A stretch of 19,358 bases of DNA from an uncultured Rubrobacteraceae bacterium (lineage in GTDB: Bacteria; Actinomycetota; Rubrobacteria; Rubrobacterales; Rubrobacteraceae), in the NCBI GenBank assembly GCA_902805985.1, contig CADCUW010000092.1:1-19358 (forward strand), read 5' to 3'. The notes under the pieces are model-generated. The model did no database searches. It saw only the letters and a program-made list of their open reading frames with translations, and had not been told where the DNA came from. Numbering within the stretch: position 1 is the first letter of the stretch; the number at the start of each line of letters is the position of its first letter. This document shows positions 1,221 through 13,419 of this stretch, piece after piece. Made by a program: the position numbers and the translations under genes.

Positions 1221-2033
1221 CTACCGCCCGTTCTGGATCAGCACGGAGGCCTCCCGCCCGGCCCACTGGACGAGCTCGATGAGGTGCCTCTGCCCCTCCT
1301 CCCTGATGCGCCGGGGCGTGGTCGAGAGCCCTATCGCCCCCTCCACCTTGCCGTTCTCGTCCTGCACGGGCGCCGCCACGCAGCACAGGTTCAGCGCGAA
1401 CTCCTCGAAGTCCGTCGCCAGCCCAACCATCCGCGCCTTGTTGAGCTGCGCGTGCAAAAGCGCCGGCTGGGTGATGGTCCTTGGCGTGAACGCCTCCAGC
1501 CCGTGGTCGTCAACGTAATCGTCGACGTACGCGGACCCCTGGCCGGCCAGCAGCACCTTGCCCAGAGCCAGCGCGTGCGTCGCCCCCTGGAAGCCCGGCG
1601 TGACCCCCACGGGCGGCCCGTCCGGCGGGGCCTTGACCTGCGTGACGGTGACCTCCCCGTCCGAGAGCACCGCCGTGTAGACATTCCGGCACGACCGCCG
1701 GGCCAGCTCCGCCACGACGGGTTCGATGGTGGCGTCGAGGTTGCTCCTCGCGTTGTGCTTGAGCGCGGCGACCGCGGGACCCAGCCTGTAGCCCCCGTTC
1801 TTCGGGACCCTGTCGATGTACCCCTCCTCCACGAGTATGTGCAGCAGGTAGTAGCAGTTGGAGAGGCTTGTCTCTATCTCCCGGGCCAGTTGCTTCGCCG
1901 TGAGATCCTCACCGCGCCGGCTGACGAGGTCTATGATCTTGAAGACCCGACGCACGCTCCGGAATTTCGGTCCGGTCTCCAACTCTCGTGCGGGCGCAGA
2001 ACCGTTGGCCCTCTCCGAAAAATGCCGCCTCAT
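1221..2033 (-). CDS. IclR-family transcriptional regulator
   Basis: 270-residue DNA-binding regulator. Seen: a winged helix-turn-helix at about residues 28-92 (LTAKQLAREIETSLSNCYYLL, then GYIDRVPKNGGYRLG for the wing), then an IclR effector domain (about 100-265) with HALALGKVLLAG, a DDHGLEAFTPRTIT segment and AAPVQDENGKVEGAIGLS. Length is usual for the family. Start: ATG 2033 with GGGGTGA about 8 bases upstream. Context: transcribed away from the hydroxylase gene, so the two share the 2034-2330 control region with the palindrome at 2151-2169. A weak - strand promoter (TTGCGC 2125-2120, CAAAAT 2103-2098, 16-bp spacer) may drive it. Inference: it is the best candidate to bind the palindromes ahead of the three monooxygenase units. 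Family members can activate or repress; the site position favours activation. In mycobacterial mim loci the regulator (MimR) is, as I recall, of another family. Confidence 0.93.
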   Translation of the reverse strand: MRRHFSERANGSAPARELETGPKFRSVRRVFKIIDLVSRRGEDLTAKQLAREIETSLSNCYYLLHILVEEGYIDRVPKNGGYRLGPAVAALKHNARSNLDATIEPVVAELARRSCRNVYTAVLSDGEVTVTQVKAPPDGPPVGVTPGFQGATHALALGKVLLAGQGSAYVDDYVDDHGLEAFTPRTITQPALLHAQLNKARMVGLATDFEEFALNLCCVAAPVQDENGKVEGAIGLSTTPRRIREEGQRHLIELVQWAGREASVLIQNGR

Positions 2034-2150: not shown

Positions 2151-2169
2151 TTTCTCACACTGTTGGAAA
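2151..2169. promoter_or_regulatory. Palindromic operator O1 ahead of the hydroxylase gene
   Basis: TTTCTCACACTGTTGGAAA is a dyad: TTTC-nn-ACA-n-TGT-nn-GAAA, symmetric about base 2160 except the n positions. It shares 13 identical bases (ACACTGTTGGAAA) with the site at 4268-4280, and TGTTGGAAA with the site at 8681-8689. Its centre lies 48 bp upstream of the first base of the -10 hexamer at 2208, about -60 from the expected transcript start. It lies between the divergent iclR and the hydroxylase gene, so it could serve both. Confidence 0.75.
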
Positions 2170-2184
2170 AATGGTTCGGTGGCC

Positions 2185-2213
2185 TTTGCCGGCCCCGACG
2201 CCGGACATAAGAT
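2185..2213 (+). promoter_or_regulatory. Putative sigma-70-type promoter of the hydroxylase large-subunit gene
   Basis: TTTGCC (2185-2190) and TAAGAT (2208-2213) are separated by 17 bp; TTGCCG one base later with a 16-bp spacer is an equal reading. The predicted transcript start near 2220 gives a leader of about 110 bases. The match to consensus is moderate, which suits a promoter needing an activator at the upstream palindrome. Confidence 0.55.
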
Positions 2214-2242
2214 GGCTTTGTAAGAAAGGGAACTTGCAAGGT

Positions 2243-2314
2243 ATGCCGTCGGGAAAACGGAGGAGGTACGGGCGAGGACACTGCCAGGAAGCACGTTTGG
2301 TAGCCCGACTCTAG
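2243..2314 (+). CDS. Possible 23-codon leader ORF
   Basis: ATG 2243 to TAG 2312-2314 encodes a short basic peptide (starts [12 protein letters not shown], one Cys, ends VARL). It lies wholly in the predicted leader and stops 16 bases before the GTG of the hydroxylase gene; its stop codon sits just before that gene's AAGGAG ribosome site. It has only a poor ribosome site of its own (CAAGG one base from the ATG, or AAAGGG about 12 away). It may be chance; if translated it could couple to the downstream gene. Confidence 0.2.
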
Positions 2315-2330
2315 AAAGGAGTCATTCTAC

Positions 2331-3968
2331 GTGGCCCGAAGAAGCGTAACCAAGGCACACAAGAAGATCCAGGAACTCTCCTGGGAGCCGACTTTCGTCG
2401 AGAAAGACCCGAAGTACAAGACCGACTACGTGCTCGAAAAGGGTTCGCAGAAGGACCCGATGAAGCAGGTAATGCAGTCGTACTTCACCATGCAAGAGGA
2501 GAAGGACCACAGGGTGTACGGCGCCGTAGACGGTGCTGTGCGCGGGAACATGTGGCGTCAGGTGCAGCCGAGGTGGATGGAGTGGCAGAAGCTCTTCCTC
2601 TCCATCATCCCCTTCCCCGAGATCTCCGCGGCCAGGGCGATGCCGCTCCTGACGGAGGCGGTGCCCAACACGGAGATCCACAACGGGCTTGCGCTCCAGA
2701 TGATCGACGAGGTCCGCCACTCGACGATCCAGATGAACCTCAAGCGCGAGTACATGAAGAACTACATCGACCCGGCGGGGTTCGACATCACCGAGAAGGC
2801 GTTCTCCAACAACTACGCCGGGACCATCGGCCGTCAGTTCGGCGAGGGTTTCATAACGGGTGATGCGATCACGGCCTGCAACATCTACCTCCAGGTCGTC
2901 GCGGAGACCGCCTTTACGAACACCTTGTTCGTGGCGATGCCGTCGGAGGCTGCGGCCAACGGCGACTACCTGCTGCCGACGGTGTTCCTCTCGGTCCAGT
3001 CCGACGAATCCAGGCACATGAACAACGGCTACGGCACGCTCCTGATGGCGCTCGCGAACGACGAGAACAAGGACCTCCTAGAGCGCGACCTGATCTACTC
3101 GCTCTGGAACCAGCACGCCGTCGTCGACGCCGCCATCGGCGTGTTCATCGAGTACGGAACCAAGGACCGCCGCAAGGACCGCGAGTCCTACGCGGAGATG
3201 TGGCGCCGCTGGTACTACGACGACTACTACCGCAGCTACCTGGTGCCGCTCGAGAAGTACGGTCTCAAGGTCCCCCACGAGGTTGTCGAGGAGGGCTGGA
3301 ACCGGATCTGGAACAAGGGCTACGTGCACAAGGTCGCCCAATTCTTCGCAACCGGCTGGCCGGTCAACTACTGGCGCATAGACCCGATGACCGAGGAAGA
3401 CTTCGAGTGGTTCGAGCACAAGTACCCAGGCTGGTACAACGAGTTCGGCCAGTGGTGGGAGCACTACAGCTCGCTCTCGGAGCCCAACGGCCACAAGCCG
3501 ATAGCCTTCGAGGACACGGGCTACGTGTACCCGCACCGCTGCTGGAGCTGCATGGTCCCGTGCCTGATCCGCGAGGATACGGTCATGGACTTTGTCGACG
3601 GCCAGTGGAGGACCTACTGCCACGAGTACTGCCACTGGACGGACACGGTCGCCTTCCGGGACACCTACAAGGGCCGCCCGACGCCCGCCATGGGCAAGAT
3701 GACCGGCAAGCGCGAGTGGGAGACCCTCTACCACGGCTGGGACCTCGCCGACATTCAGCAGGACCTCGGCTACGTCCGGGACGACGGCAAGACCCTCGTC
3801 CCCCAGCCCCACGTCCTCTTCGACGAGAAGAAGATGTGGACCCTCGACAATATGCGGGGCATCGAGTTCCAGAGCCCGAACGTCCTGCTCAACCAGATGT
3901 CCGACGAAGAGCGCGAGAAGCACATGGCGGAGTACAAGCAAGGCTTCACCATCAACACGAGCTACTAA
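2331..3968 (+). CDS. prmA: Propane/acetone-type soluble diiron monooxygenase, hydroxylase large (alpha) subunit
   Basis: Catalytic subunit (545 residues) of a soluble diiron monooxygenase of the PrmA/MimA group; known members oxidise propane to 2-propanol, and some act on acetone or phenol. Seen: six iron ligands at E97, E127, H130, E192, E226 and H229 (EVRH and ESRH motifs); the spacings 30-3-62-34-3 equal those of methane monooxygenase (114, 144, 147, 209, 243, 246). The conserved run [20 protein letters not shown] lies between. A C-terminal Cys/His cluster (C404, C407, C411, C430, C434) resembles a YHS-like metal-binding domain. Start: GTG 2331 with AAGGAG 9 bases upstream, giving [10 protein letters not shown] as in relatives. 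Context: unlike the usual contiguous operon, a terminator and about 470 bases separate it from the reductase gene. Alternative symbol mimA; substrate cannot be read from sequence alone. Confidence 0.96.
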
Positions 3969-3990
3969 CCGTCCACGACATCCGAAAGGC

Positions 3991-4015
3991 GAGCGGCCGG
4001 GCAAACCGGCCGCTC
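3991..4015 (+). terminator. Probable intrinsic terminator after the hydroxylase large-subunit gene
   Basis: A 10-bp perfect stem (GAGCGGCCGG / CCGGCCGCTC) with loop GCAAA begins 23 bases after the stop codon and is followed by a pyrimidine run (TCTCTTT). It separates the large-subunit transcript from the reductase operon. Confidence 0.7.
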
Positions 4016-4261
4016 TCTCTTTGCGCCGCAAGCGAAGATACCGGAGCTTGAAATTCCTGCCTCCAAGGAACGGCGCGGGCTTTTTTGACCGGACCGTTTC
4101 GCGTGCGTAGGATCCAGGCCGGAAAGGGAATCGCAGGAACGAGAGCCAAGAGCAGGTCGCCGTCGGCGGGGAGGCGGGCGCGAGAAACACACGGCGGCCC
4201 GGTCTCTAAAGAGCGCCGCCGATCTCACCGAGCGGTCTCCCCTCGCGCCTCACGGTCCTCG
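4016..4261. other. Intergenic stretch with no recognised gene
   Basis: About 246 bases between the terminator and the O2 palindrome. Small open frames here have atypical, Arg/Ser-rich composition and no ribosome site. A TTTTTT run at 4081-4086 follows a GC-rich stretch but no convincing stem precedes it. I see no RNA gene or repeat. Confidence 0.5.
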
Positions 4262-4280
4262 ATTCCGACACTGTTGGAAA
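4262..4280. promoter_or_regulatory. Distal palindromic operator O2 ahead of the reductase operon
   Basis: The core TTCCGACACTGTTGGAA (4263-4279) is the most symmetric copy: TTCC-n-ACA-n-TGT-n-GGAA, centre 4271. It is about 107 bp upstream of the predicted transcript start and exactly 48 bp (centre to centre) upstream of the weaker copy O3. Confidence 0.7.
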
Positions 4281-4310
4281 TTCTCCGTATTTCGTACACG
4301 CACCCGTAAA

Positions 4311-4327
4311 TCCCAACACTTGAGGAA
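4311..4327. promoter_or_regulatory. Proximal, weaker operator O3 ahead of the reductase operon
   Basis: TCCCAACACTTGAGGAA matches 9 of the 12 fixed positions of TTC-nn-ACA-n-TGT-nn-GAA. On its own it would be unconvincing. Its centre (4319) is 47 bp before the first base of the -10 at 4366, the same spacing as O1 (48) and O4 (47), which is why I call it. Confidence 0.55.
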
Positions 4328-4342
4328 TCGATTGGCACTATT

Positions 4343-4371
4343 TTGACGTGGCCTTGTTGCGTGTATACGAT
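4343..4371 (+). promoter_or_regulatory. Promoter of the reductase / small subunit / coupling protein operon
   Basis: TTGACG (4343-4348), a 17-bp spacer, then TACGAT (4366-4371); the overlapping TATACG (4364-4369) with a 15-bp spacer is the alternative. This is the best sigma-70-like promoter in the locus. Predicted start is near 4378, leaving a leader of about 60 bases. Confidence 0.65.
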
Positions 4372-4439
4372 CGTGGTTCACCAGGGGTTTAGGGCATACA
4401 CCACAAGACCATGCATAAAAGGGGTTGAGGGGCTTAGTT

Positions 4440-5531
4440 ATGGGAAAGAAGCACAAGGTCCACTTTGAGCCGGTCGGCATCGAGATCGAGGTAGACGAAG
4501 AAGAGACCGTCCTCGATGCGGCGTTCCGGCAGGGCGTCATGTTGATGCATGGCTGTAGGCAGGGGCAGTGCGCGGCGTGCAAGGCGTTTCTGTTGGATGG
4601 CGACATGGAGATGGACCCTTTCTCCACTTTCGCGCTAAACGAGACCGAGGAAGAGGAGGGCTTCGTCCTCCTGTGCAAGTCTTACGCCTACGGCGATCTT
4701 GAGGTCGAGCTCATCGCCTACCACGAGGACATGCTGGAGACGGGTGTTCCGATCCAGATGATTCACGCCGAGGTCCAGGAGATCGAGGCGCTCACGCATG
4801 ACATAAAGCGCCTCGTGCTCAACCTGGTGGATCCCCCGGAGATGAACTTTATCCCGGGGCAGTACGCCGAGCTCTACCTCCCGGGGAGCAACGAGCACCG
4901 GGCCTACTCCATGGCGAACACCACCTCCTCCGCCGAGCGGGCCGAGTTCATCATCAAAGTCTATCCGGGCGGGATGTTCTCAAGTTACCTGGAGGAGGAG
5001 CTCAAGGTCGGGGACAAGATGAAGGTGAAGGTCCCCTTCGGGATGTTCATGCTGCACGAGAAGTCCGAGGGAGACATCATCTTTCTCGGGGGCGGCTCGG
5101 GAATGGCCCCGATCTGGTCCATCCTCAACCACATGGCCGAGAACGGCATCGAGCGGAAGGCCACTTACTACTACGGGGCCAGGACAAAGAAAGACCTCTT
5201 CTTTCTCGACGAGTTAGCGGCGTTGGAGAAAAAGCTGCCAGGTTTCCGTTTCGTGCCGGCGCTCTCGGACCCAGACCCCGACGACGAGTGGGACGGGGAG
5301 ACGGGTTTGATCACGGATGTCCTCAGCCGCCTGGAAGGAGACCTCAGCGGGACGGAGGCGTACCTGGCCGGCCCACCCCCCATGATCGACGCGGCTATCC
5401 CGGTGATCGAGGCGAAGGGCGTGGAGCGGGAGAGCATCTACTTCGACAAGTTCACGACCACGGGGGAGGCGGAAGGGTCCAAGAAAAAAGAAGTGAAAGG
5501 CCCGGAGGCCCCCGAACGACTCGAACAATAG
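4440..5531 (+). CDS. prmB: Monooxygenase reductase component (2Fe-2S / FAD / NADH)
   Basis: Passes electrons from NADH through FAD and a 2Fe-2S centre to the hydroxylase. Seen in 363 residues: an N-terminal ferredoxin domain with C39, C44, C47 and C79 (C-x4-C-x2-C-x31-C), FAD-binding RAYSMAN (154-160), the NAD-binding GGGSGMAP (217-224), and the C-terminal IYFDKF typical of the ferredoxin-NADP reductase superfamily. A Lys/Glu-rich tail of about 20 residues follows. Start: ATG 4440 is preceded by GAGGGG 7 bases away and fits the family; a TTG 15 bases upstream is in frame but less likely. Context: first gene of a three-gene operon with its own promoter. Alternative symbol mimB. Confidence 0.95.
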   Translation: MGKKHKVHFEPVGIEIEVDEEETVLDAAFRQGVMLMHGCRQGQCAACKAFLLDGDMEMDPFSTFALNETEEEEGFVLLCKSYAYGDLEVELIAYHEDMLETGVPIQMIHAEVQEIEALTHDIKRLVLNLVDPPEMNFIPGQYAELYLPGSNEHRAYSMANTTSSAERAEFIIKVYPGGMFSSYLEEELKVGDKMKVKVPFGMFMLHEKSEGDIIFLGGGSGMAPIWSILNHMAENGIERKATYYYGARTKKDLFFLDELAALEKKLPGFRFVPALSDPDPDDEWDGETGLITDVLSRLEGDLSGTEAYLAGPPPMIDAAIPVIEAKGVERESIYFDKFTTTGEAEGSKKKEVKGPEAPERLEQ

Positions 5532-5630
5532 AAGGAGATGCCTATGCTTTGACGGGCAGAGAAGCGACAAATCCAGAGAGAGCATCGTGCGGACAGCAAA
5601 GATCAGTTGGGAAAGGATGGTTGACTGTCT

Positions 5631-6764
5631 GTGAGTGAAGAGAAGGCAATTACCGAAGCGGCGGGACGGGGAACGAGGAGCATACCCCCCATCCGGTTGA
5701 CGGACGCGGAAGCCGGGGCGGCCGAGTTCGCGGGGTCCGGCAGCCGGACGTACAACTACTTCGAGCCCAAGGGGCGTCGCGCCACCAAGTACGAGGACGT
5801 GACGGTCGACGTCCAGCCCGACCCCGACAAGTACCTGACGCAGGGTTGGATCCTCGGGTGGCCCAACGGCGATCTGGGCTACGACGCGACCTGGACGAGC
5901 ATAAAGTCGTCCAACTGGCACGAGTTCCGCGACCCCAACGAGGAGTGGGAGAAGACGTACTACGTCAACAACTCGAACTCCGTCCGCCAGATCACGCAGA
6001 GCATCGAGAACGCCAAGTCAGAGAACGTGTTCCAGTACTGGAACAAGAGCTGGCTCCCGATCGTCGCCAAGCACGTCAGCGCCTGGTCGCACGTGGATCA
6101 CGGCCTCGGCATGTACGTCTTCATGCCAGCCCAAAGGGCCGCCATGAGCAACATGCTCAACAACGCCATCGCCGTCAACTGCATGCACAAGCTGCGCACC
6201 GCCCAGGACATCATCCTCTACAACCTGGAGATAAGCGAGATCTTCTCCGAGGACGAGTTCGACCCGACCATCCATCAAGAAACCTGGATGAACGATCCGT
6301 CCTGGCAGGGCGTGCGCGAGAACGTGGAGCGCATAATCAACGCCAAGGACTGGGCTGAGACCACCTTCGCGGCCAACATTATCCTGGAGCCGCTCGTCGG
6401 CGAGCTGTTCCGCAGCCAGTTCGTGATGCGGTTCGCCCCCCTGCACGGCGATTCGCTGACCGGCTCGGTGATCGGCGTGAGCGAGAGGGAGTTCAACGAG
6501 CGCGACCTCCGCTACACCAAGGAGATGTTCCGGGTCTTCGGCGAGGACGAAGTCCACGGCGAGGAGAACCGCCAGCTCATGCAGGAGTGGCTCGCCCGCT
6601 GGACGCCCTACAGCGTCGCCGCCGCCAAGGGACTCGCACCCATCTGGTCCGAGCCCGAGGCCAAGCCGGTGAGCTTCGAGGATTCCTACGAAGGGGTCAA
6701 GAGCCGCTTCCAGGGCATCCTCTCCGATCTGCAACTCCAGCTGCCAGAGGAGGTGACCCTGTGA
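5631..6764 (+). CDS. prmC: Monooxygenase hydroxylase small (beta) subunit
   Basis: Structural partner of the large subunit in the dimeric hydroxylase; it has the ferritin-like four-helix fold but no metal site in this family. Seen: 377 residues with the family pattern RTYNYFEPKGRRATKYEDVT (about 39-58), QPDPDKYLTQGWI, LKSS-like IKSSNWHEFRDPNEEWE, NNAIAVN-MHKLRTAQD and LEPLVGELFRSQFVM. No EXXH iron pairs, as expected. Start: GTG 5631, with AAAGGATGG ending 10 bases upstream. A five-codon ATG reading frame (5617-5634) ends over this GTG, so translation may be reinitiated. Context: about 100 bases after the reductase and overlapping the next gene by GTGA. Alternative symbol mimC. Confidence 0.94.
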   Translation: MSEEKAITEAAGRGTRSIPPIRLTDAEAGAAEFAGSGSRTYNYFEPKGRRATKYEDVTVDVQPDPDKYLTQGWILGWPNGDLGYDATWTSIKSSNWHEFRDPNEEWEKTYYVNNSNSVRQITQSIENAKSENVFQYWNKSWLPIVAKHVSAWSHVDHGLGMYVFMPAQRAAMSNMLNNAIAVNCMHKLRTAQDIILYNLEISEIFSEDEFDPTIHQETWMNDPSWQGVRENVERIINAKDWAETTFAANIILEPLVGELFRSQFVMRFAPLHGDSLTGSVIGVSEREFNERDLRYTKEMFRVFGEDEVHGEENRQLMQEWLARWTPYSVAAAKGLAPIWSEPEAKPVSFEDSYEGVKSRFQGILSDLQLQLPEEVTL

Positions 6765-7126
6765 GCGAACGGCCCACCGAAGAACGATTCCAGAGCGACC
6801 GCACCTCGTCCAACAGGTGCGGCGTCACGATGAGCGCCAGCGTCGAGGGCAACGCCATCGCCGAGGTAATGGGCGAGAAGCCCGGGGTTGAGGTCAGCAA
6901 GTACCCGGCCATGATCCGGATAGACGCCGACGACAGGCTCGAGTTCGACATGGACGAGATAGCCGAGGCCCTGGGCGTCGAGGAGTTCACCCCGGAAGAC
7001 TTCGAGATCGAGACCTCCACCCACTACGGGCGGATGGTCAAACAGGACGACCGGGTCCTCCTGTTCGCCAACCCCGAAGATGCCGCCGAGGAAATCGGCT
7101 TCCAACTCCCGGAGGTGAAGCAGTAG
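6761..7126 (+). CDS. prmD: Monooxygenase coupling (regulatory) protein, MmoB/PrmD family
   Basis: Small cofactor-free effector that binds the hydroxylase and tunes oxygen activation and electron transfer. Seen: 121 residues, with CGVTMSASVEGNAIAEVM (about 20-37), the PAMIRIDADDRLEFD strand pair, STHYGRMVKQDDRVLLFANP and the final EDAAEEIGF, all typical of PrmD/MimD. Start: GTG 6761 overlaps the stop of the small-subunit gene (GTGA) and has GGAGGTGA just upstream, so it is translationally coupled; an upstream in-frame extension inside the previous gene is a shadow. Last gene of the unit; a long palindrome follows 25 bases later. Confidence 0.95.
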   Translation: MSERPTEERFQSDRTSSNRCGVTMSASVEGNAIAEVMGEKPGVEVSKYPAMIRIDADDRLEFDMDEIAEALGVEEFTPEDFEIETSTHYGRMVKQDDRVLLFANPEDAAEEIGFQLPEVKQ

Positions 7127-7151
7127 CCCTTCGCTAAACCAGAGCTTTTCT

Positions 7152-7191
7152 GTAAGAGGGCGGCAGGTTCGCGAACCTGCCGCCCTCTTAC
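7152..7191. terminator. 40-base perfect palindrome after the coupling-protein gene
   Basis: Arms of 20 bases are perfectly complementary (starts GTAAGAGGGCGG, centre TTCGCGAA). No T run follows on the + strand; the - strand side is also not T-rich. As RNA it would form a very stable hairpin with a UUCG-like tip. It is probably a terminator of the U-less kind reported in actinobacteria, or a 3'-end stabiliser of the reductase operon mRNA. Confidence 0.6.
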
Positions 7192-7306
7192 GGCGTCGAC
7201 ACGCGATGGTTTAATTCGATTCACCGTGAGCCCCGCGCGAGGGGGACGCTGCCCTTCCCCGGGTGGCATCATGGGTTTGCAGGGAGATCGACCAAGGGAT
7301 AAGGTC

Positions 7307-8051
7307 ATGAGGTTCCGCACCCTCATGCGCGCGGCACTCTTTGACGGTACGCTGTACGCGGAGGCCAAGGCTAACACGACAGCCACCGGGTCGGCGCTTG
7401 GGGTCGTAGGGCTCGTGGCGCTGGCGCACGGTGCGGGAGGGATCATTCGGGCGGTGGCCTTCGAGCGGGACCCCCCGACAGGGACCCCCGACAGAGGGCT
7501 TCCTCATCGGCGCGCAAGGCGAGATCGTCTTCTGGGTCGGGAGCTCCTCCGCGATCTATCTCATCGGTAGATACCTTCTGGGCAGCACGGCCACCTACGG
7601 GCAGGAGCTACGGCCGTTGGGCTTCGCGGCGGTACCAGGGCTGCTCATCCCCGTTGCCGCCCTGGCCTCGCTCGTCGGTGCCGAGACCTTGATCTTCGCG
7701 GCGCTCGTTCCCTGGCGGTTGGCGACGAGCCTCGTCGCCGTAGACCGGGCCTTGGGGGTGGGTCGGACGAGGAGTGCGGTTGCCTTCTTGCTCGGCGCAA
7801 TGTGCGGGCTAGTGCTGGTGGGGATCGGTACGGTAACGCTGCTAAACGTACTGGCCTTAGCCAATCTCAGAGGATCCCCTGACCTTCGAAACCTTTGTTT
7901 GCCCCGGCCTTGCCACCCGACGAGCAGGACCGAGCGGCCAACTGGACCTTACGGCCGGTGGGAGAGCGCCTGGACGACCTTCTGGGGGGTCGGTAGGCGT
8001 TCCACGCCGGGCCAGCCGCGGCTGAGCAGCCCGCCGCCGCCCGCGACGTAG
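7307..8051 (+). pseudogene. Yip1-like membrane protein gene, frameshifted by a 13-bp tandem duplication
   Basis: Seen: the first part (ATG 7307, RFRTLMRAALFDGTLYAEAK, then a hydrophobic TGSALGVVGLVALAHGAGG) is in one frame; the rest (GEIVFWVGSSSAIYLIGRYL, then several hydrophobic segments to about 7860) is in another. They meet at two direct copies, GGGACCCCCCGACA (7467-7480) and GGGACCCCCGACA (7481-7493). Removing the 13-base second copy restores one frame reading ERDPPTEGFLIGAQGE, so the break is explained exactly. The pattern of a short N-terminus, then four or five membrane segments with ATYGQELRPLGFAAVPGLL, resembles Yip1-domain proteins common in these bacteria. After about 7870 the frame runs on over - strand sequence and no longer looks like protein. 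ATG 7271 and 7325 are alternative starts. Function unknown; either a pseudogene or a sequencing/assembly error. Confidence 0.65.
7467..7493. repeat. 13/14-bp tandem duplication
   Basis: GGGACCCCCCGACA is followed directly by GGGACCCCCGACA. The copies differ only by one C in the C run. The 13-base insertion shifts the Yip1-like reading frame by +1. Confidence 0.85.
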
Positions 8052-8240
8052 GAGATGATCACGGACGTGGGACCGTCGTCCCCGAAGCTGACCATCCGGT
8101 AGTACTTGCCGTGCCTCCCGATAACCGTGCCGGACGAACCCCGTTCCGACCGATCCTCCCACCCCAGGCGCGCGAGCGCTCCCCGTACACCTCGGCCCTG
8201 CTCTCTCCGCGAGAAGCCACGCGCCCTCCCGTCGCCCTCC
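7949..8240 (-). pseudogene. Fragment of an unrecognised protein gene, no start codon
   Basis: An open - strand frame (from after TGA 8275-8273 to TAA 7951-7949) has convincing protein character in its 3' half: GTVIGRHGKYYRMVSFGDDG, PTSVIISYVAGGGGLLSRGW, then VERLPTPQKVVQALSHRP. There is no ATG, GTG or TTG in the frame before an internal ATG at 8095, which lies mid-domain. Near 8180-8200 another frame reads RAEVYG, which would join ALARLGWEDR if two bases were removed, so a second frameshift is likely. I do not recognise the family. It lies just downstream of the 102-residue gene and the two frames overlap by about 23 bases. Called a remnant; a 48-residue product from 8095 is possible. Confidence 0.4.
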
Positions 8241-8249
8241 GGTCCCCGT

Positions 8250-8558
8250 CTAGCCGTTGCCCGGGCGCCGCGTCATCTCCCGCTCCTTGAGCTCCAACAG
8301 CCCGTCCCGGAACTCCTCCGGAGAGGTGGATCTCTCGAAGAGGCCGGCAATGTCCTCTATGTCCCGGCGATTCATCAGGAGGTACTCCCACCCGTCCTTG
8401 GTGTGCAGGCCCTCGAAGGCGCAGACCGCCATCGCCACGGTATTCCACGGGTCCTCCGTCCCGTTCTCGTGGCACATGTGGAGCATCCTGCCCGCCTTGA
8501 GGGTGCGCTCCCCGAACTCCCTCGGCCTCGTGTGCCTGTTCGCATGATCCCCGAGCAT
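8250..8558 (-). CDS. Unrecognised 102-residue protein
   Basis: No family recognised. Seen: 102 residues, hydrophilic, no membrane segment; a motif-like core KAGRMLHMCHENGTEDPWNT (about 22-41), then VAMAVCAFEGLHTKDGWEYL and a charged helical C-terminus (SPEEFRDGLLELKEREM). Start: ATG 8558 has a strong AAAGGAG about 6 bases upstream; a TTG 18 bases further up is less likely. A weak - strand -10 (TATAGA) lies about 75 bases upstream. Context: back to back with the amidohydrolase operon promoter. Its good ribosome site and codon use suggest a live gene, unlike its downstream neighbour. A His/Cys pair (HMCH) might bind metal; that is speculation. Confidence 0.65.
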   Translation of the reverse strand: MLGDHANRHTRPREFGERTLKAGRMLHMCHENGTEDPWNTVAMAVCAFEGLHTKDGWEYLLMNRRDIEDIAGLFERSTSPEEFRDGLLELKEREMTRRPGNG

Positions 8559-8670
8559 TCTCGACTCCTTTCCCAAAAGGGCGGCGAAGATCGTCGTGTT
8601 CTCGGCCGAACGTCCCTCGCTTGCAACAGTCTATACAGGCAGGGTGGCCGCGTCCCGTTCCCCCGAGGTT

Positions 8671-8689
8671 TTTCTTACGTTGTTGGAAA
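8671..8689. promoter_or_regulatory. Palindromic operator O4 ahead of the amidohydrolase-groEL operon
   Basis: TTTCTTACGTTGTTGGAAA follows TTTC-nn-AC-nnn-GT-nn-GAAA, centre 8680. It shares TTTCT-AC and TGTTGGAAA with O1. The centre is 47 bp before the first base of the -10 at 8727, about -59. Confidence 0.75.
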
Positions 8690-8702
8690 GCCGGGGGCGT
8701 TG

Positions 8703-8732
8703 TTGCCGCGGGTCCGGGGTTCACCCTATAAT
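8703..8732 (+). promoter_or_regulatory. Promoter of the amidohydrolase / MIP18 / adh / groEL operon
   Basis: TTGCCG (8703-8708) and a perfect TATAAT (8727-8732) with an 18-bp spacer. Predicted start near 8739 leaves a leader of about 150 bases, in which a strong AAAGGAGG (about 8755) has no standard start codon behind it. The real first start is TTG 8889. Confidence 0.65.
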
Positions 8733-8888: not shown

Positions 8889-9923
8889 TTGTACGAGAAA
8901 GACGGCGAGAAGTACTTCGTGGTCGACGGTCACGTCCACTACTGGGACGCGAGCCCGGAGAACACGACCAACCGCTACGGCGAGGGCTTTATAAGCTGCT
9001 TCTACGACTACCATAAGAACCTCAGCCCCGAAGAGTACGCGTGGGACTACGACAAGTACCGCAAGTACTCTGAAGAGGACATGATGCACGACCTCTTCGA
9101 GGTGGGCTACGCCGACAAGGCGATCTTCCAGCCCACCTACCTCACGGACTTCTACGGCAACGGCTTCAATACCACCGAGCGCAACGCCATCATGCGCGAC
9201 AAGTACCCCGACAAGTTTATCCTGAACGGCTCCTTCGAGCCCAGGCGCGGCGAGGCCGGCCTCCAGGAGTTCGAGCGCAAGCACGAGAAGTACGGCTTCA
9301 CCGGCGTCAAGCTCTACACCGCCGAGTGGCACGATGACTCTAGAGGCTGGAAGCTCGACGACTACTGGTCCATAAAGCACCTCGAGAAGTGCGTGGAGCT
9401 CGGTGTAAAGAACGTCCACGTCCACAAGGGGCCGACGATCTGGCCGCTCAACAAGGACGCCTTCGACGTCGCAGACGTCGACAGGGTCGCCGGCGAGTTC
9501 CCCGACCTCAACTTTATCGTCGAGCACGTGGGGTTGCCGAGGCTGGAGGACTTCTGCTGGATCGGGACGCAGGAGCCCAACGTCTACGGTGGCCTGGCGG
9601 TCGCGATGCCGTTCATCCACGCCAAGCCCAGGTACTTCGCCCAGATCATGGGCGAGCTGCTGTACTGGCTCGGCGATGACAAGCTCCTCTTCGCCAGCGA
9701 CTACGCGCTCTGGCAGCCCAAGTGGCTCGTCGAGATGTTCGTGGACTTCAAGTACCCCGAGGACGCGGAGTTCGACGACTACGACGAGATCACGCCGGAC
9801 GTCAAGCGCAAGATCCTCGGCCTCAACGCCGCCAACCTCTACGGCATAGAGGTCCCGCAGGAGATGCGGGCCACCGAGGAGAGCGGCGACCGCGTGGCCG
9901 CCGAGCCGGTCTCCCCCGCCTGA
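8889..9923 (+). CDS. Amidohydrolase-2 family metal-dependent hydrolase of the monooxygenase locus
   Basis: TIM-barrel hydrolase (344 residues) of the amidohydrolase-2 (PF04909-type) group. Seen: the metal-binding HxH at H15/H17 (VVDGHVHYWD), later HVHKGPTIWP, EHVGLPRLED and the catalytic Asp region LLFASDYALWQP. Start: TTG 8889 gives MYEKDGEKYFVVDGH, with GAGGAG 5 bases upstream; a longer in-frame reading from 8814 has no ribosome site. Known: a homologue accompanies mimABCD in mycobacteria, from memory, but its reaction is not established to my knowledge. Context: first gene of the third unit, with overlap TGATG to the next gene. Inference: it may act in maturation of the monooxygenase or on a downstream metabolite. 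Confidence 0.9.
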   Translation: MYEKDGEKYFVVDGHVHYWDASPENTTNRYGEGFISCFYDYHKNLSPEEYAWDYDKYRKYSEEDMMHDLFEVGYADKAIFQPTYLTDFYGNGFNTTERNAIMRDKYPDKFILNGSFEPRRGEAGLQEFERKHEKYGFTGVKLYTAEWHDDSRGWKLDDYWSIKHLEKCVELGVKNVHVHKGPTIWPLNKDAFDVADVDRVAGEFPDLNFIVEHVGLPRLEDFCWIGTQEPNVYGGLAVAMPFIHAKPRYFAQIMGELLYWLGDDKLLFASDYALWQPKWLVEMFVDFKYPEDAEFDDYDEITPDVKRKILGLNAANLYGIEVPQEMRATEESGDRVAAEPVSPA

Positions 9924-10618
9924 TGCCTGCCCGCAAGGAGGTCCTGGACGCCCTCTCGGGCGTCCGGGACCCGGAGCTTGACGAGCCGATCACCGACCTG
10001 GACTTCGTGTCCTCGTTGGAGATAGAGGACGACGCAGCCACCATCAGGCTGCGGCTGCCGACGTACTTCTGCGCCCCGAACTTCGCCTACCTGATGGTCG
10101 CGGACGCGCAGGCCGCGGCCGTCTCGGTGCCGGGCATCGAGCGGGCGACGGTCTTTCTCGACGACCACTACGCCTCCGAGGAGATCAACGGCGGCGTCAA
10201 CGAAGAGCGCGGCTTCGACGGCGCCTTCCCCAAGGAGACGGAGAGCCCCGACCTCGAAGGGCTCCGTACCATCTTCCGGCGCAAGAGCTTCGTCTCCCGC
10301 CAGGAGCAGCTCTGCCGAACCCTACGGGCTGATGGCCATCCTCCGGAAGAACTCGCGAACATGAAGTTGGAGGACCTCCCCCCCTCAGACGAGTTCGAGA
10401 AGTATCTGGAGCGCAGGGCGGAGCTCGGCCTCGACGTCTCGGCCGGGGCTCCGCTCGTCGTTGACCCTGACGGCAACCGGGTGCCGGAGGATGCGGTCGT
10501 GCAGCACCTGCGGTTCGCCAAGACCGTGAGGGTGAGCATCGAGGGGAACGCAGGCCTCTGTCGCGGTCTCCTCTCCGTCCGCTACGGCATTCCCCAAAGA
10601 GAGGAGAAGACCGCATGA
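9923..10618 (+). CDS. MIP18/DUF59 iron-sulfur assembly-type protein with C-terminal extension
   Basis: 231 residues. Seen: an N-terminal MIP18 (DUF59) domain, about residues 1-85, with the family signature DALSGVRDPELDEPITDLDF and a conserved-looking Cys in YFCAPNFAYLM; then about 145 residues that I cannot assign, including RKSFVSRQEQLCRTLR and FAKTVRVSIEGNAGLCRGLL. Known: DUF59 proteins help load metal or iron-sulfur centres (SufT, the PaaD family; PaaD serves another diiron monooxygenase, PaaABCDE). Start: ATG 9923 overlaps the amidohydrolase stop (TGATG); the end overlaps the next gene (ATGA), so all three are tightly coupled. Inference: maturation factor for the diiron hydroxylase or its reductase, by analogy with PaaD. 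Confidence 0.85.
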   Translation: MPARKEVLDALSGVRDPELDEPITDLDFVSSLEIEDDAATIRLRLPTYFCAPNFAYLMVADAQAAAVSVPGIERATVFLDDHYASEEINGGVNEERGFDGAFPKETESPDLEGLRTIFRRKSFVSRQEQLCRTLRADGHPPEELANMKLEDLPPSDEFEKYLERRAELGLDVSAGAPLVVDPDGNRVPEDAVVQHLRFAKTVRVSIEGNAGLCRGLLSVRYGIPQREEKTA

Positions 10619-11676
10619 AGGCGGCCCGGCTGCACCGCTACGACGAGAGCATTCCCAAGGACAGCCTCAAGGTCGAGGAGATCGAAGAGCCGAAGATAGA
10701 GAACCCCTTAGACGTTCTCGTGAAGGTCGGGGCGGCGGGGCTCTGCCGCACGGACATCCACGTCGTCGAGGGCCAGTGGGCGCCCATCCAGGACCCGGAC
10801 GGGACGCTGCTGCCGTACGTGCTCGGGCACGAGAACTCGGGGTGGGTCGAGGAGGTCGGGTCTGCCGTCACCAACGTGCAACCGGGCGACACCGTGATCT
10901 GCCACCCCCTAATGACGTGCGGGCTTTGCCACTATTGCCGAGCGGGCAGGGACATGCAGTGCGAGAACGGCGCCTTCCCCGGCATAAGCCAGGACGGCGG
11001 CTTCGCCCAGCTTCTGAGAACGAGCGCGAGGAGCGTCGTAAAGCTCGACCCGGTCCTGCAGCCCAAGGACATCGCAGCCCTCGCCGACGCGGGGCTGACC
11101 GCCCACCACGCCGTCAGGAAGGCCGTACCCGACCTCTACGCCGGGACTAACGCCGTCGTCATAGGCGCCGGGGGGCTCGGGCACATCGGCATCCAGTGCC
11201 TGAGGGCGATGACGCCGACGAACATAATCGTGGTGGACCCGAGTGAGGAGGCGCTCGCACTCGCCAAGGAGTGGGGCGCGGACGAGACCGTGCAGGTCCA
11301 GGAGGGCTACGCGGACACCGTGATCGAGATGACCAACGGGGGGGCCGAGGTCGTCTTCGACTACGTCGGCGAGCGGGGCGCCCAGGACGAGGCCTGGAAG
11401 ATGACGCGGCCGGCCGGCTCCCACTACGTCATCGGCTACGGTGGGAAGATCGAGATCCCGACCATAGACATCATCTCGACCGAGCGGAACGTCATCGGCA
11501 ACCTCGTCGGCACCTACAACGACCTCGCCGAGCTGATGAACCTGACGGCCCGGGGCCTGGTCACGCTCCATACATCGACCTACCCGCTGGACGCCGTCAA
11601 CGACGCGATCCAGGACCTGAACTCGGGCAACCTGAGGGGGCGCGGAATACTCATCCCCGAGGGCGCCGCCGCCTGA
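10615..11676 (+). CDS. adh: Zinc-dependent NAD alcohol dehydrogenase (MDR family)
   Basis: 353 residues, medium-chain dehydrogenase. Seen: catalytic zinc ligands C44 and H72/E73 (GLCRTDIH, GHENSG), a full structural zinc lobe C102, C105, C108 and C116, and a Rossmann motif VIGAGGLGHIG (about 176-186); the acidic residue in IIVVDPSEE indicates NAD rather than NADP. Known: an adh follows prm/mim genes in Gordonia and mycobacteria and oxidises the alcohol product, such as 2-propanol to acetone. Start: ATG 10615 overlaps the preceding stop. Context: third gene of the unit, followed by a stem-loop and then groEL. The substrate is inferred from position. Confidence 0.93.
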   Translation: MKAARLHRYDESIPKDSLKVEEIEEPKIENPLDVLVKVGAAGLCRTDIHVVEGQWAPIQDPDGTLLPYVLGHENSGWVEEVGSAVTNVQPGDTVICHPLMTCGLCHYCRAGRDMQCENGAFPGISQDGGFAQLLRTSARSVVKLDPVLQPKDIAALADAGLTAHHAVRKAVPDLYAGTNAVVIGAGGLGHIGIQCLRAMTPTNIIVVDPSEEALALAKEWGADETVQVQEGYADTVIEMTNGGAEVVFDYVGERGAQDEAWKMTRPAGSHYVIGYGGKIEIPTIDIISTERNVIGNLVGTYNDLAELMNLTARGLVTLHTSTYPLDAVNDAIQDLNSGNLRGRGILIPEGAAA

Positions 11677-11710: not shown

Positions 11711-11740
11711 ACAGGGGTGCCGGAATGCCGGCGCCCCTGT
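11711..11740 (+). other. Stem-loop between adh and groEL
   Basis: A 13-bp stem (ACAGGGGTGCCGG / CCGGCGCCCCTGT, one G-U pair) with loop AATG, 34 bases after the adh stop. No T run follows, and no clear promoter is visible before groEL, so I favour an attenuator or mRNA processing/stability element within one operon over a full terminator. Confidence 0.5.
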
Positions 11741-11784
11741 CCATTATCGACCAAGCCGTGTCGCAGCGGCGGGAAGGTTCTACC

Positions 11785-13419
11785 GTGGCGCACAAGAAGC
11801 TGAAGTTCGACACCGACGCCCGCCGGGCGCTCGAGAGGGGCGTAGACAAGCTCGCGGGCGCCGTGAGGGTCACGCTAGGCCCGAAGGGGCAGTACGTGGT
11901 CCTCGGCCAGGCGTTCGGCACGCCGACGATCACCAACGACGGCGTGACCATCGCCCGGCAGGTGGAGCTCAGAGACGTCTTCGAGAACCAGGGCGCCCAA
12001 CTCGTGCTCGAGGTCGCGACCAAGACAAACGACGTGGCGGGCGACGGGACGACGACAGCCCTCGTGCTGGCCCAGAAGATCGTGAGCGAGGGCCTCAAGA
12101 ACGTGGCGGCCGGGGCCAACCCGGTCATCTTGCGGGGCGGCATCGACAAGGCCGTCGAGGCCGCGGTCGGTTCGATCCGGGCTCAGGCGCGCGAGATCTC
12201 GGGCAGGGATGAGATCTCGCGCGTCGGCGCGATCTCCGCCCGCTCCCGGGAGATAGGCGACGTTATCGCCGACGCTATAGAGAAGGTCGGCAAGGACGGC
12301 GTCGTGAACGTGGAGCAGGGACAGACCCTCGCCATGGAGCTGGAGTTCACGGAGGGGATGCACTTCGACAAGGGCTACGTCTCCCCCTACTTCGTCACCG
12401 ACCAGGAGACGATGGAGGCGGTGCTCGACGAGCCATACATACTCCTCGCGAACCAGAAGATCAGCAACGTCCCTGACCTGCTGCCGGTCCTGAACGCCGT
12501 CGTGCGGGCCGGCAAGCCGCTGCTCATAATCTCCGACGACCTCGAAGGCGAGGCCCTGGCGGCCCTGATAGTCAACAACGCGCGCGGGACCTTCTCCGTG
12601 GCCGCCGTGCGGGCGCCGAGCTTCGGCGACCGCAGGAAGAGGATGCTCGAGGACATCGCCATCCTCACCGGCGGCGAGGTCATCACCGCCGACCTCGGCC
12701 TCACGCTCGAGAACGCCAGCATAGACCAGCTCGGCCGTGCGAGGCGCGTCTACATCACCAAGGACGACACCGTCATCATCGACGGCGCGGGCGACCCCGA
12801 GGAGATCTCCGGCCGCACCCACCAGATCCGGAACGAACTCGAGATGACCGAATCGGACTTCGACCGCGAGAAGCTCCAGGAGCGTCTCGCCAGGCTGGCC
12901 GGCGGCGTCGCGATCGTCAAGGTTGGCGCCGCGACCGAGACGGAGCTCAAGGAGCGCAAGCACCGCGTCGAGGACGCCCTCTCGGCGACCCGGGCAGCTC
13001 TTGAGGAGGGCATCGTCCCCGGCGGGGGCGTGGTGTACCTGCGGGCCCAGGAGGCCGTCGCCGGGATACTCGATACGCTCGACGGCGACGAGAAGACGGG
13101 GGCCAGGATCGTGCACCGGGCGCTGGAGGAGCCGATCCGCCAGATCGCCGCCAACGCCGGCGCCGACGGGTCGATCGTGGTCTCCAGGGTGAGGGACCGG
13201 GGCGGCGACGTCGGCTTCAACGCGCTAACCGGCGAGTACGAGGACCTGATCTCCGCCGGCGTCACCGACCCGACGATGGTCTCCCGCTCGGCCCTCGAGA
13301 ACGCCGCCTCGATCGGCTCCCTGATCCTGACCACCGAGGTCGTCGTCGCAGAACCCCCGCCCGAGGGCGGAGGCGCCGCGGCCGTCTCCCGCACCGGCCA
13401 CAACATGGACTTCATGTAG
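11785..13419 (+). CDS. mimG: Dedicated GroEL-like chaperonin of the monooxygenase locus
   Basis: 544 residues, a full-length Hsp60. Seen: [22 protein letters not shown], the ATP-site [15 protein letters not shown], and the chaperonin signature [15 protein letters not shown]. The C-terminus ends GHNMDFM and lacks the GGM repeats of housekeeping GroEL. No groES is next to it. Start: GTG 11785 ([14 protein letters not shown]) with GGGAAGG 7 bases upstream; the in-frame extension upstream covers the stem-loop and is not coding. Known: in mycobacteria MimG, a GroEL homologue, is needed to produce active MimABCD in a foreign host. Inference: it folds the hydroxylase here. Last gene of the unit. Confidence 0.93.

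Follow-up and report, generated by a model that had tools for sequence, protein, structure and literature searches.

Related genomes point to probable joint control of the three units of a split propane-monooxygenase-type locus by one IclR-type regulator in an uncultured Rubrobacteraceae bacterium

The window analyzed here, the whole of a 19,358-nucleotide stretch of contig CADCUW010000092.1 from an uncultured Rubrobacteraceae bacterium, a soil relative of Rubrobacter, contains the genes of a propane-monooxygenase-type enzyme, a divergent gene for an IclR-family regulator, and several copies of a palindrome that is probably the operator of that regulator. The regulator gene (positions 1221 to 2033, minus strand) diverges from prmA, and its product combines an N-terminal HTH_IclR domain (PF09339; 37.4 bits, cut-off 22) with a C-terminal IclR effector domain (IclR_C, PF01614; 93.8 bits, cut-off 24); the nearest NCBIfam models, BhcR and PcaR/PcaU/PobR, both score far under cut-off. 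On the plus strand, prmA (2331 to 3968) encodes a prmA/mimA-type hydroxylase large subunit (98% to L010; genomes and loci are cited by our G and L numbers), which gave no match in the NCBIfam profile search and resembles the structures of methane monooxygenase hydroxylase alpha subunits (best match, 8.6e-68). It is followed, also on the plus strand, by genes for the reductase (prmB, 4440 to 5531, in an open reading frame [ORF] from 4425 to 5531; MmoC-like, 286 bits, under the curated cut-off of 500), the hydroxylase small subunit (prmC, 5631 to 6764; MmoY-like, 124 bits, under the cut-off of 700), and the coupling protein (prmD, 6761 to 7126, in a longer ORF from 6587 to 7126; NCBIfam MimD, 165 bits, above the cut-off of 150). 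The MimD-type coupling protein and the order large subunit, reductase, small subunit, coupling protein assign the enzyme to the propane-monooxygenase (prm/mim) type, for which oxidation of propane at C2 is a prediction only; acetone hydroxylation is an alternative described for related Mim enzymes (PMC7176365). Farther downstream, on the same strand, lie genes for an amidohydrolase (Amidohydro_2; 8889 to 9923), an MIP18/DUF59-type protein (9923 to 10618, in a longer ORF from 9722 to 10618; Pfam FeS_assembly_P), a zinc alcohol dehydrogenase (adh, 10615 to 11676; best match 1h2b, with further matches including the secondary alcohol dehydrogenase 2xaa and the Rhodococcus ruber enzyme 8uar), and a GroEL-type chaperonin (11725 to 13419; TIGR02348, above cut-off). 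Whereas many other actinobacterial loci carry prmA and the amidohydrolase, MIP18, adh, and groEL genes in that order on one strand with short gaps (e.g., L020 to L022), the enzyme genes here appear, judged by gaps and promoters, to be split into three units.

Copies of the palindrome lie ahead of all three units. Counted against the consensus TTCnnACAnTGTnnGAA, the copy in the iclR-prmA gap (2152 to 2168, centered at 2160; TTCTCACACTGTTGGAA) is exact, and the copy ahead of the amidohydrolase gene (8672 to 8688, centered at 8680; TTCTTACGTTGTTGGAA) has one mismatch. At the reductase promoter, a second exact copy (4263 to 4279, centered at 4271, about 107 bp upstream of the predicted start site; TTCCGACACTGTTGGAA) sits 48 bp upstream of a weak copy with three mismatches (4311 to 4327, centered at 4319; TCCCAACACTTGAGGAA), the two forming a tandem pair. 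Plus-strand promoters are predicted for prmA (2185 to 2213; TTTGCC at 2185 to 2190, 17 bp, TAAGAT at 2208 to 2213), the reductase gene (4343 to 4371; TTGACG at 4343 to 4348, 17 bp, TACGAT at 4366 to 4371), and the amidohydrolase gene (8703 to 8732; TTGCCG at 8703 to 8708, 18 bp, TATAAT at 8727 to 8732). An earlier note on this DNA had placed copies at 2160, 4319 (weak), and 8680, each 47 or 48 bp from a −10 hexamer, and our measurements agree in every coordinate: from center to first base of the −10, the distances are 48 bp (2160), 47 bp (4319), and 47 bp (8680). One refinement concerns the reductase gene, where the strong copy is the distal member of the pair.

How far such a pattern exceeds chance depends on the stringency of the match. 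With up to three mismatches allowed, the window contained five matches, a count that was not significant against 200 shuffles (mean, 2.48; 18 of the 200 reached five). In the source genome as a whole (4,226,979 bases in 707 contigs, about 89% complete), matches with no more than one mismatch were limited to nine places, of which three lie in the window, and the reversed control pattern gave none; the exact motif was thus not scattered across the genome. What exceeds chance is therefore the exact and one-mismatch copies, not the permissive count within the window. A matrix trained on 17 sites from outside the source genus (the near-duplicates G027 and G029 excluded) ranked positions 2152 (35.7 bits), 8672 (27.0 bits), and 4263 (20.2 bits) first to third in the window, with the next position at 1.3 bits and the weak copy at 4311 in ninth place (−0.8 bits); among 1,286,044 background positions from 70 named prm loci without a close IclR, two reached 14 bits and none reached 16. 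Across 39 genomes, assigned to Rubrobacteraceae because several correspond to named Rubrobacter or Rubrobacteraceae contigs (L010 to L016), the exact motif occurred at 14 places (reversed control, 0), 13 of which fall in a prm or iclR locus. The six other one-mismatch places of the source genome were set aside: five are copies of one repeat, and the sixth (L009) is a look-alike with no BLAST similarity to the five. The repeat, dispersed over five contigs (L004 to L008), is 145 to 190 bp long, 92 to 98% identical between copies, and similar to a miniature inverted-repeat transposable element, and it carries TTCTGAGACTGTCTGAA or a near form of it. In a relative, an exact match far from prm (TTCAAACATTGTTTGAA; G004:C88:10120, L163:5121) lies about 1.6 kb from an IclR paralog (24% identity). 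Chance palindromes or a repeat element could account for the nonsignificant permissive count and for the existence of an operator look-alike in a dispersed repeat; however, the look-alike has AGA for ACA and sits on other contigs, and the genome-wide rarity, together with the conservation and phase described next, leaves this explanation hardly credible.

The relatives search covered 99 genomes, among them 13 of Rubrobacteraceae (counting the source) in which a close prmA occurs. Upstream of prmA, centered 167 to 197 bp before its start, 12 of these 13 carry a site with no more than one mismatch. The remaining genome, G036 (L119), is the only one of them that lacks a prmA operator; as an observation in its own right, the presumed recognition helix of its IclR protein carries Ala (SAYYLL) in place of the Cys shared by the other 20 aligned close IclRs. 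An exact site also precedes prmA in L030, a Solirubrobacterales metagenome-assembled genome (MAG) whose IclR is 53% identical, and the reductase promoter of L030 has no site. In the family, twelve reductase promoters were readable. Six, that of the window included, have paired sites 48 to 49 bp apart with a TAnnnT hexamer 46 to 47 bp past the second; in three others (G020, G024, and G028), the paired sites are 38 bp apart and TAnnnT follows at 53 bp, and G019 has one site only. Recurrence in relatives lends support to the weak copy at 4319: a second site lies 48 to 49 bp past the strong one in five of them as well (G004, G006, G010, G011, and G032, where it ranks third). Sites with at most two mismatches precede the amidohydrolase gene in G000 (the source genome), G004, G006, G011, G019, and G032 and groEL in G010, G011, G024, and G028; in these last four, groEL comes first after the divergent ORF, and in three of them the site lies 356 to 476 bp before its start. 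The operator thus heads a unit even where the gene order is different. Judged by eye, prmA and the free-standing module discussed below both show stronger conservation in the promoter-proximal half-site (TGTTGGAA) than in the distal half. In G037 (L117, G037:C184), prmA reads in two pieces with an internal stop, and an exact operator lies upstream of it.

The distance to the −10 is conserved as well. Sites were picked by hand from promoter matches with at most two mismatches, plus two weak partners; 45 sites less the distal reductase sites of G000, G006, and G010 and the iclR-side site of G017 formed the set, in which the distal reductase sites of G004, G011, G020, G028, and G032 were kept and counted as misses. 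Of the resulting 41 sites, 28 have a TAnnnT that starts 47 to 49 bp from the center (20 of 32 once similar promoters were collapsed), compared with an average of 1.64 and a maximum of 5 for the other 3-bp windows (offsets 12 to 43 and 53 to 76). Among the 13 misses, six reductase sites and L030 (taken up below) showed no match, and TAnnnT lay at 46 bp for four sites (reductase and groEL of G010, amidohydrolase of G019, and G036), at 50 bp for one (G037), and at 51 bp for one groEL site. With a start about 12 bp past the first base of the −10, as we infer, the operator center would therefore lie near −60. Conservation in close relatives, at a matching phase, thus bears out the earlier note both on this point and on its placing of the site clear of the −35.

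The presence of the site follows that of the IclR protein. The exact motif was found in 10 of the 39 family genomes, all of them among the 21 with an IclR ortholog at an E value of ≤1e-40. The named prm loci that were compared, the best 80 of 129 relatives, include 9 with a close IclR (53 to 96% identity), and 8 of these carry a site with no more than one mismatch; none of the 71 others, which include incomplete contigs, does so. At two mismatches, nine of the 71 matched (L026, L043, L048, L053, L056, L064, L070, L076, and L087), the match in L043 lying 97 bp before prmA. A search for the IclR protein in 396 sampled genomes of the phylum (E ≤ 1e-55) returned 21 matches, all in family genomes already known, and none that was new. 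Eight genomes without a close prmA (G009, G013, G016, G017, G018, G021, G027, and G029, with only a distant homolog of 25 to 26% identity in G009 and G029) nevertheless keep the IclR protein, the site, and the amidohydrolase-MIP18-adh module, the contig of G029 ending before adh would appear. In all eight, the site precedes the amidohydrolase gene (at most one mismatch in seven, two in G018) and TAnnnT lies at 47 to 49 bp; in G017, where about 3 kb separates iclR from the module, each of the two has its own site. The operator thus occurs in the regulator's own gap and at neighboring genes and is conserved with the regulator, save at prmA and prmB of G036, and the proposal of a local regulon is supported by this co-occurrence across genomes and loci. 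From these comparisons, all three units of the window seem to be under the control of one IclR-type regulator, and on the best reading of these sequences, the most widely kept target would be the alcohol/ketone module (amidohydrolase-MIP18-adh) rather than the monooxygenase.

Binding of the palindrome by a different regulator, with IclR being merely a physical neighbor, would fit the fact that most sites lie in the locus of iclR, where linkage alone yields co-occurrence, and the source genome has 13 first-look IclR-type candidates, one of which matches at E ≤ 1e-40. Yet the site stays beside IclR where a close prmA is missing and beside separate units despite changes in gene order, it is absent at one mismatch from the named prm loci without a close IclR, and its core fits an IclR motif class, so that we regard a different regulator as quite improbable.

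We consider it most likely, with a probability of roughly 0.7, that the motif is the operator of the divergent IclR protein and that the palindromes near −60 at the three units serve class I activation. An IclR dimer would bind TTCCAACAnTGTTGGAA-like palindromes about 60 bp before the transcript starts of the three units (prmA and the reductase and amidohydrolase operons). With a ligand from the pathway, 2-propanol or acetone for example, it would work as a class I activator that contacts RNA polymerase from upstream of the −35. An operator near −60, upstream of the −35, is the geometry of a class I activator, and activation and its class I mode are probable from position only; direct contact with the polymerase is suggested because the position is fixed to about 1 bp at promoters of four kinds. 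The strong distal and weak proximal sites of the reductase promoter, 48 bp apart, might act as a pair, and the repeated operator could coordinate genes that form one run in many other actinobacteria. An alcohol or ketone seems the likelier ligand because genomes without the monooxygenase keep the regulon; like the ligand, IclR binding, the polymerase contact, and the transcript starts are predictions from sequence. A related Mim cluster, together with its Adh1, amidohydrolase-like protein, and GroEL, is abundant on acetone and 2-hydroxyisobutyrate (PMC7176365).

Several observations weigh against this interpretation. The weak phased copy at 4319 is not significant by itself and draws mainly on conservation. 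G036 has no site at prmA or prmB although its IclR protein is present (65% identity), G023 has none at the reductase promoter that was read, and the exact site before prmA in L030 has no TAnnnT at 47 to 49 bp. In L118, the second prm cluster of G010, the groEL upstream region, which is partly present, has no site (its prmA upstream region is truncated by the contig end). At most one mismatch is found at 89 places in the 39 family genomes compared with 30 for the reversed control, so that lone one-mismatch matches away from the locus mean little; 30 of the 39 genomes have at least one such place, and 25 of the 89 places are in genomes without an IclR ortholog. The co-occurrence of exact motif and IclR (Fisher P = 6e-4) treats related genomes as independent, and the contrast among the named loci (P = 3e-10) is not corrected for kinship. 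Finally, an operator at −60 is compatible also with repression, and members of the IclR family activate, repress, or do both (PMC8222616).

With the same operator and protein, IclR at −60, in pairs or loops, would then hold the promoters down until the ligand arrives, as the tandem pair at the reductase promoter and the location of the first site in the divergent iclR-prmA gap might indicate. A position fixed to 1 to 2 bp and clear of the −35 at many promoters, however, suits activator contact better than occlusion, and the −35 elements of prmA (TTTGCC) and the amidohydrolase gene (TTGCCG) are poor; we therefore hold repression to be unlikely and retain class I activation by IclR as the preferred interpretation. 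MhpR of Escherichia coli, an IclR-family activator with an operator near −58, likewise sits upstream of the −35, and its distance is class I-like; its operator sequence (GGTGCACCTGGTGCACA) and its pathway are different.

When the operator is compared by eye with the published group 2 consensus TGRAACAN1-2TGTTYCA (Suvorova and Gelfand 2021, PMC8222616), the AACAnTGTT core and the outer T/A agree, and GR/YC is replaced by CC/GG. As in the group 2 regulons described there, an IclR protein, a palindrome of 15 to 17 bp with an ACAnTGT core, a regulator gene beside its targets, and tandem sites are found; in contrast to them, the window locus has TTCC..GGAA flanks where group 2 has TGRA..TYCA, several promoters of a single pathway carry the site, and tandem sites are 48 bp apart (38 bp in three relatives) instead of mainly 18 to 22 bp (PMC8222616). 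The main text of that survey contains none of the words monooxygenase, propane, and Rubrobacter. The prm clusters described for Rhodococcus, Gordonia, and Mycobacterium have a Fis-type regulator gene beside them, divergent from prmA in Rhodococcus and Mycobacterium (PMC4428276), and the palindrome of Rhodococcus strain BCP1 overlaps the prmA −35, unlike the IclR operator near −60 and the split units found here (PMC4428276, PMC8784404). In a review of hydrocarbon biosensors, the regulators listed for prmABCD are of Fis type and known solely through sequence analysis, and its main text does not contain the word IclR (PMC8784404). No description of an IclR operator at a prm/mim locus was found among the literature titles and abstract openings listed, which leaves absence from print unproved. 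Propane monooxygenase homologs have been reported in seven Rubrobacteria MAGs of arid soil crust, their exact function being undetermined (PMC7901476). A defined operator and regulator would show which genes cooperate and what the cell senses; the keeping of the regulon without the monooxygenase points to an alcohol or ketone, not an alkane, as the signal, and the locus would supply an IclR-based candidate sensor for a pathway whose listed regulators are Fis-type (PMC8784404).

A similar promoter geometry may persist under a diverged IclR. In 13 named prm loci (12 from Solirubrobacterales or their genera, one from Pseudonocardiaceae), prmA is directly preceded, on its own strand, by the gene of a more distant IclR (29 to 35% identity). 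Nine of these loci (L029, L033, L034, L037, L043, L048, L059, L062, and L067) carry TTCCA (in one case TCCCA) with a partly palindromic element after it, within the IclR open frame and at a fixed distance to the CTTG-type −35 of prmA, and TAnnnT lies 46 to 47 bp on in six; weaker forms, with TAnnnT 45 bp away, are present in L046 and L082, and upstream of prmA in L031 and L088, no convincing TTCCA-type element was found. The element falls in all three codon phases and therefore looks kept as DNA, not as protein; because its consensus was built from the same loci, which makes scores circular, only codon phases and TAnnnT offsets were used. We speculate, tentatively and with something short of even confidence, that the regulon predates its link to the monooxygenase: IclR, the −60 operator, and amidohydrolase-MIP18-adh might have formed a free-standing alcohol/ketone pathway that prm genes joined or left, with the operator being placed anew at the same phase for each new unit and one activator geometry being kept while protein, motif, and gene order changed.

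Two further features of the locus lie on the minus strand. On the iclR-ward side of the gap (about 2080 to 2150), a CTTGCG ... CAAAAT pair, seen by eye also in several relatives, lies about 57 bp from the operator center, one turn beyond the spacing at the enzyme promoters; for the iclR promoter, the sites of the relatives gave no common TAnnnT offset on that strand. An ORF of 108 amino acids (8250 to 8576), divergent from the third unit and without a Pfam match, is represented by homologs of 45 to 89% identity in most prm loci of the relatives (51 homologs in all, named only "hypothetical" where named) and may be a further target of the operator.

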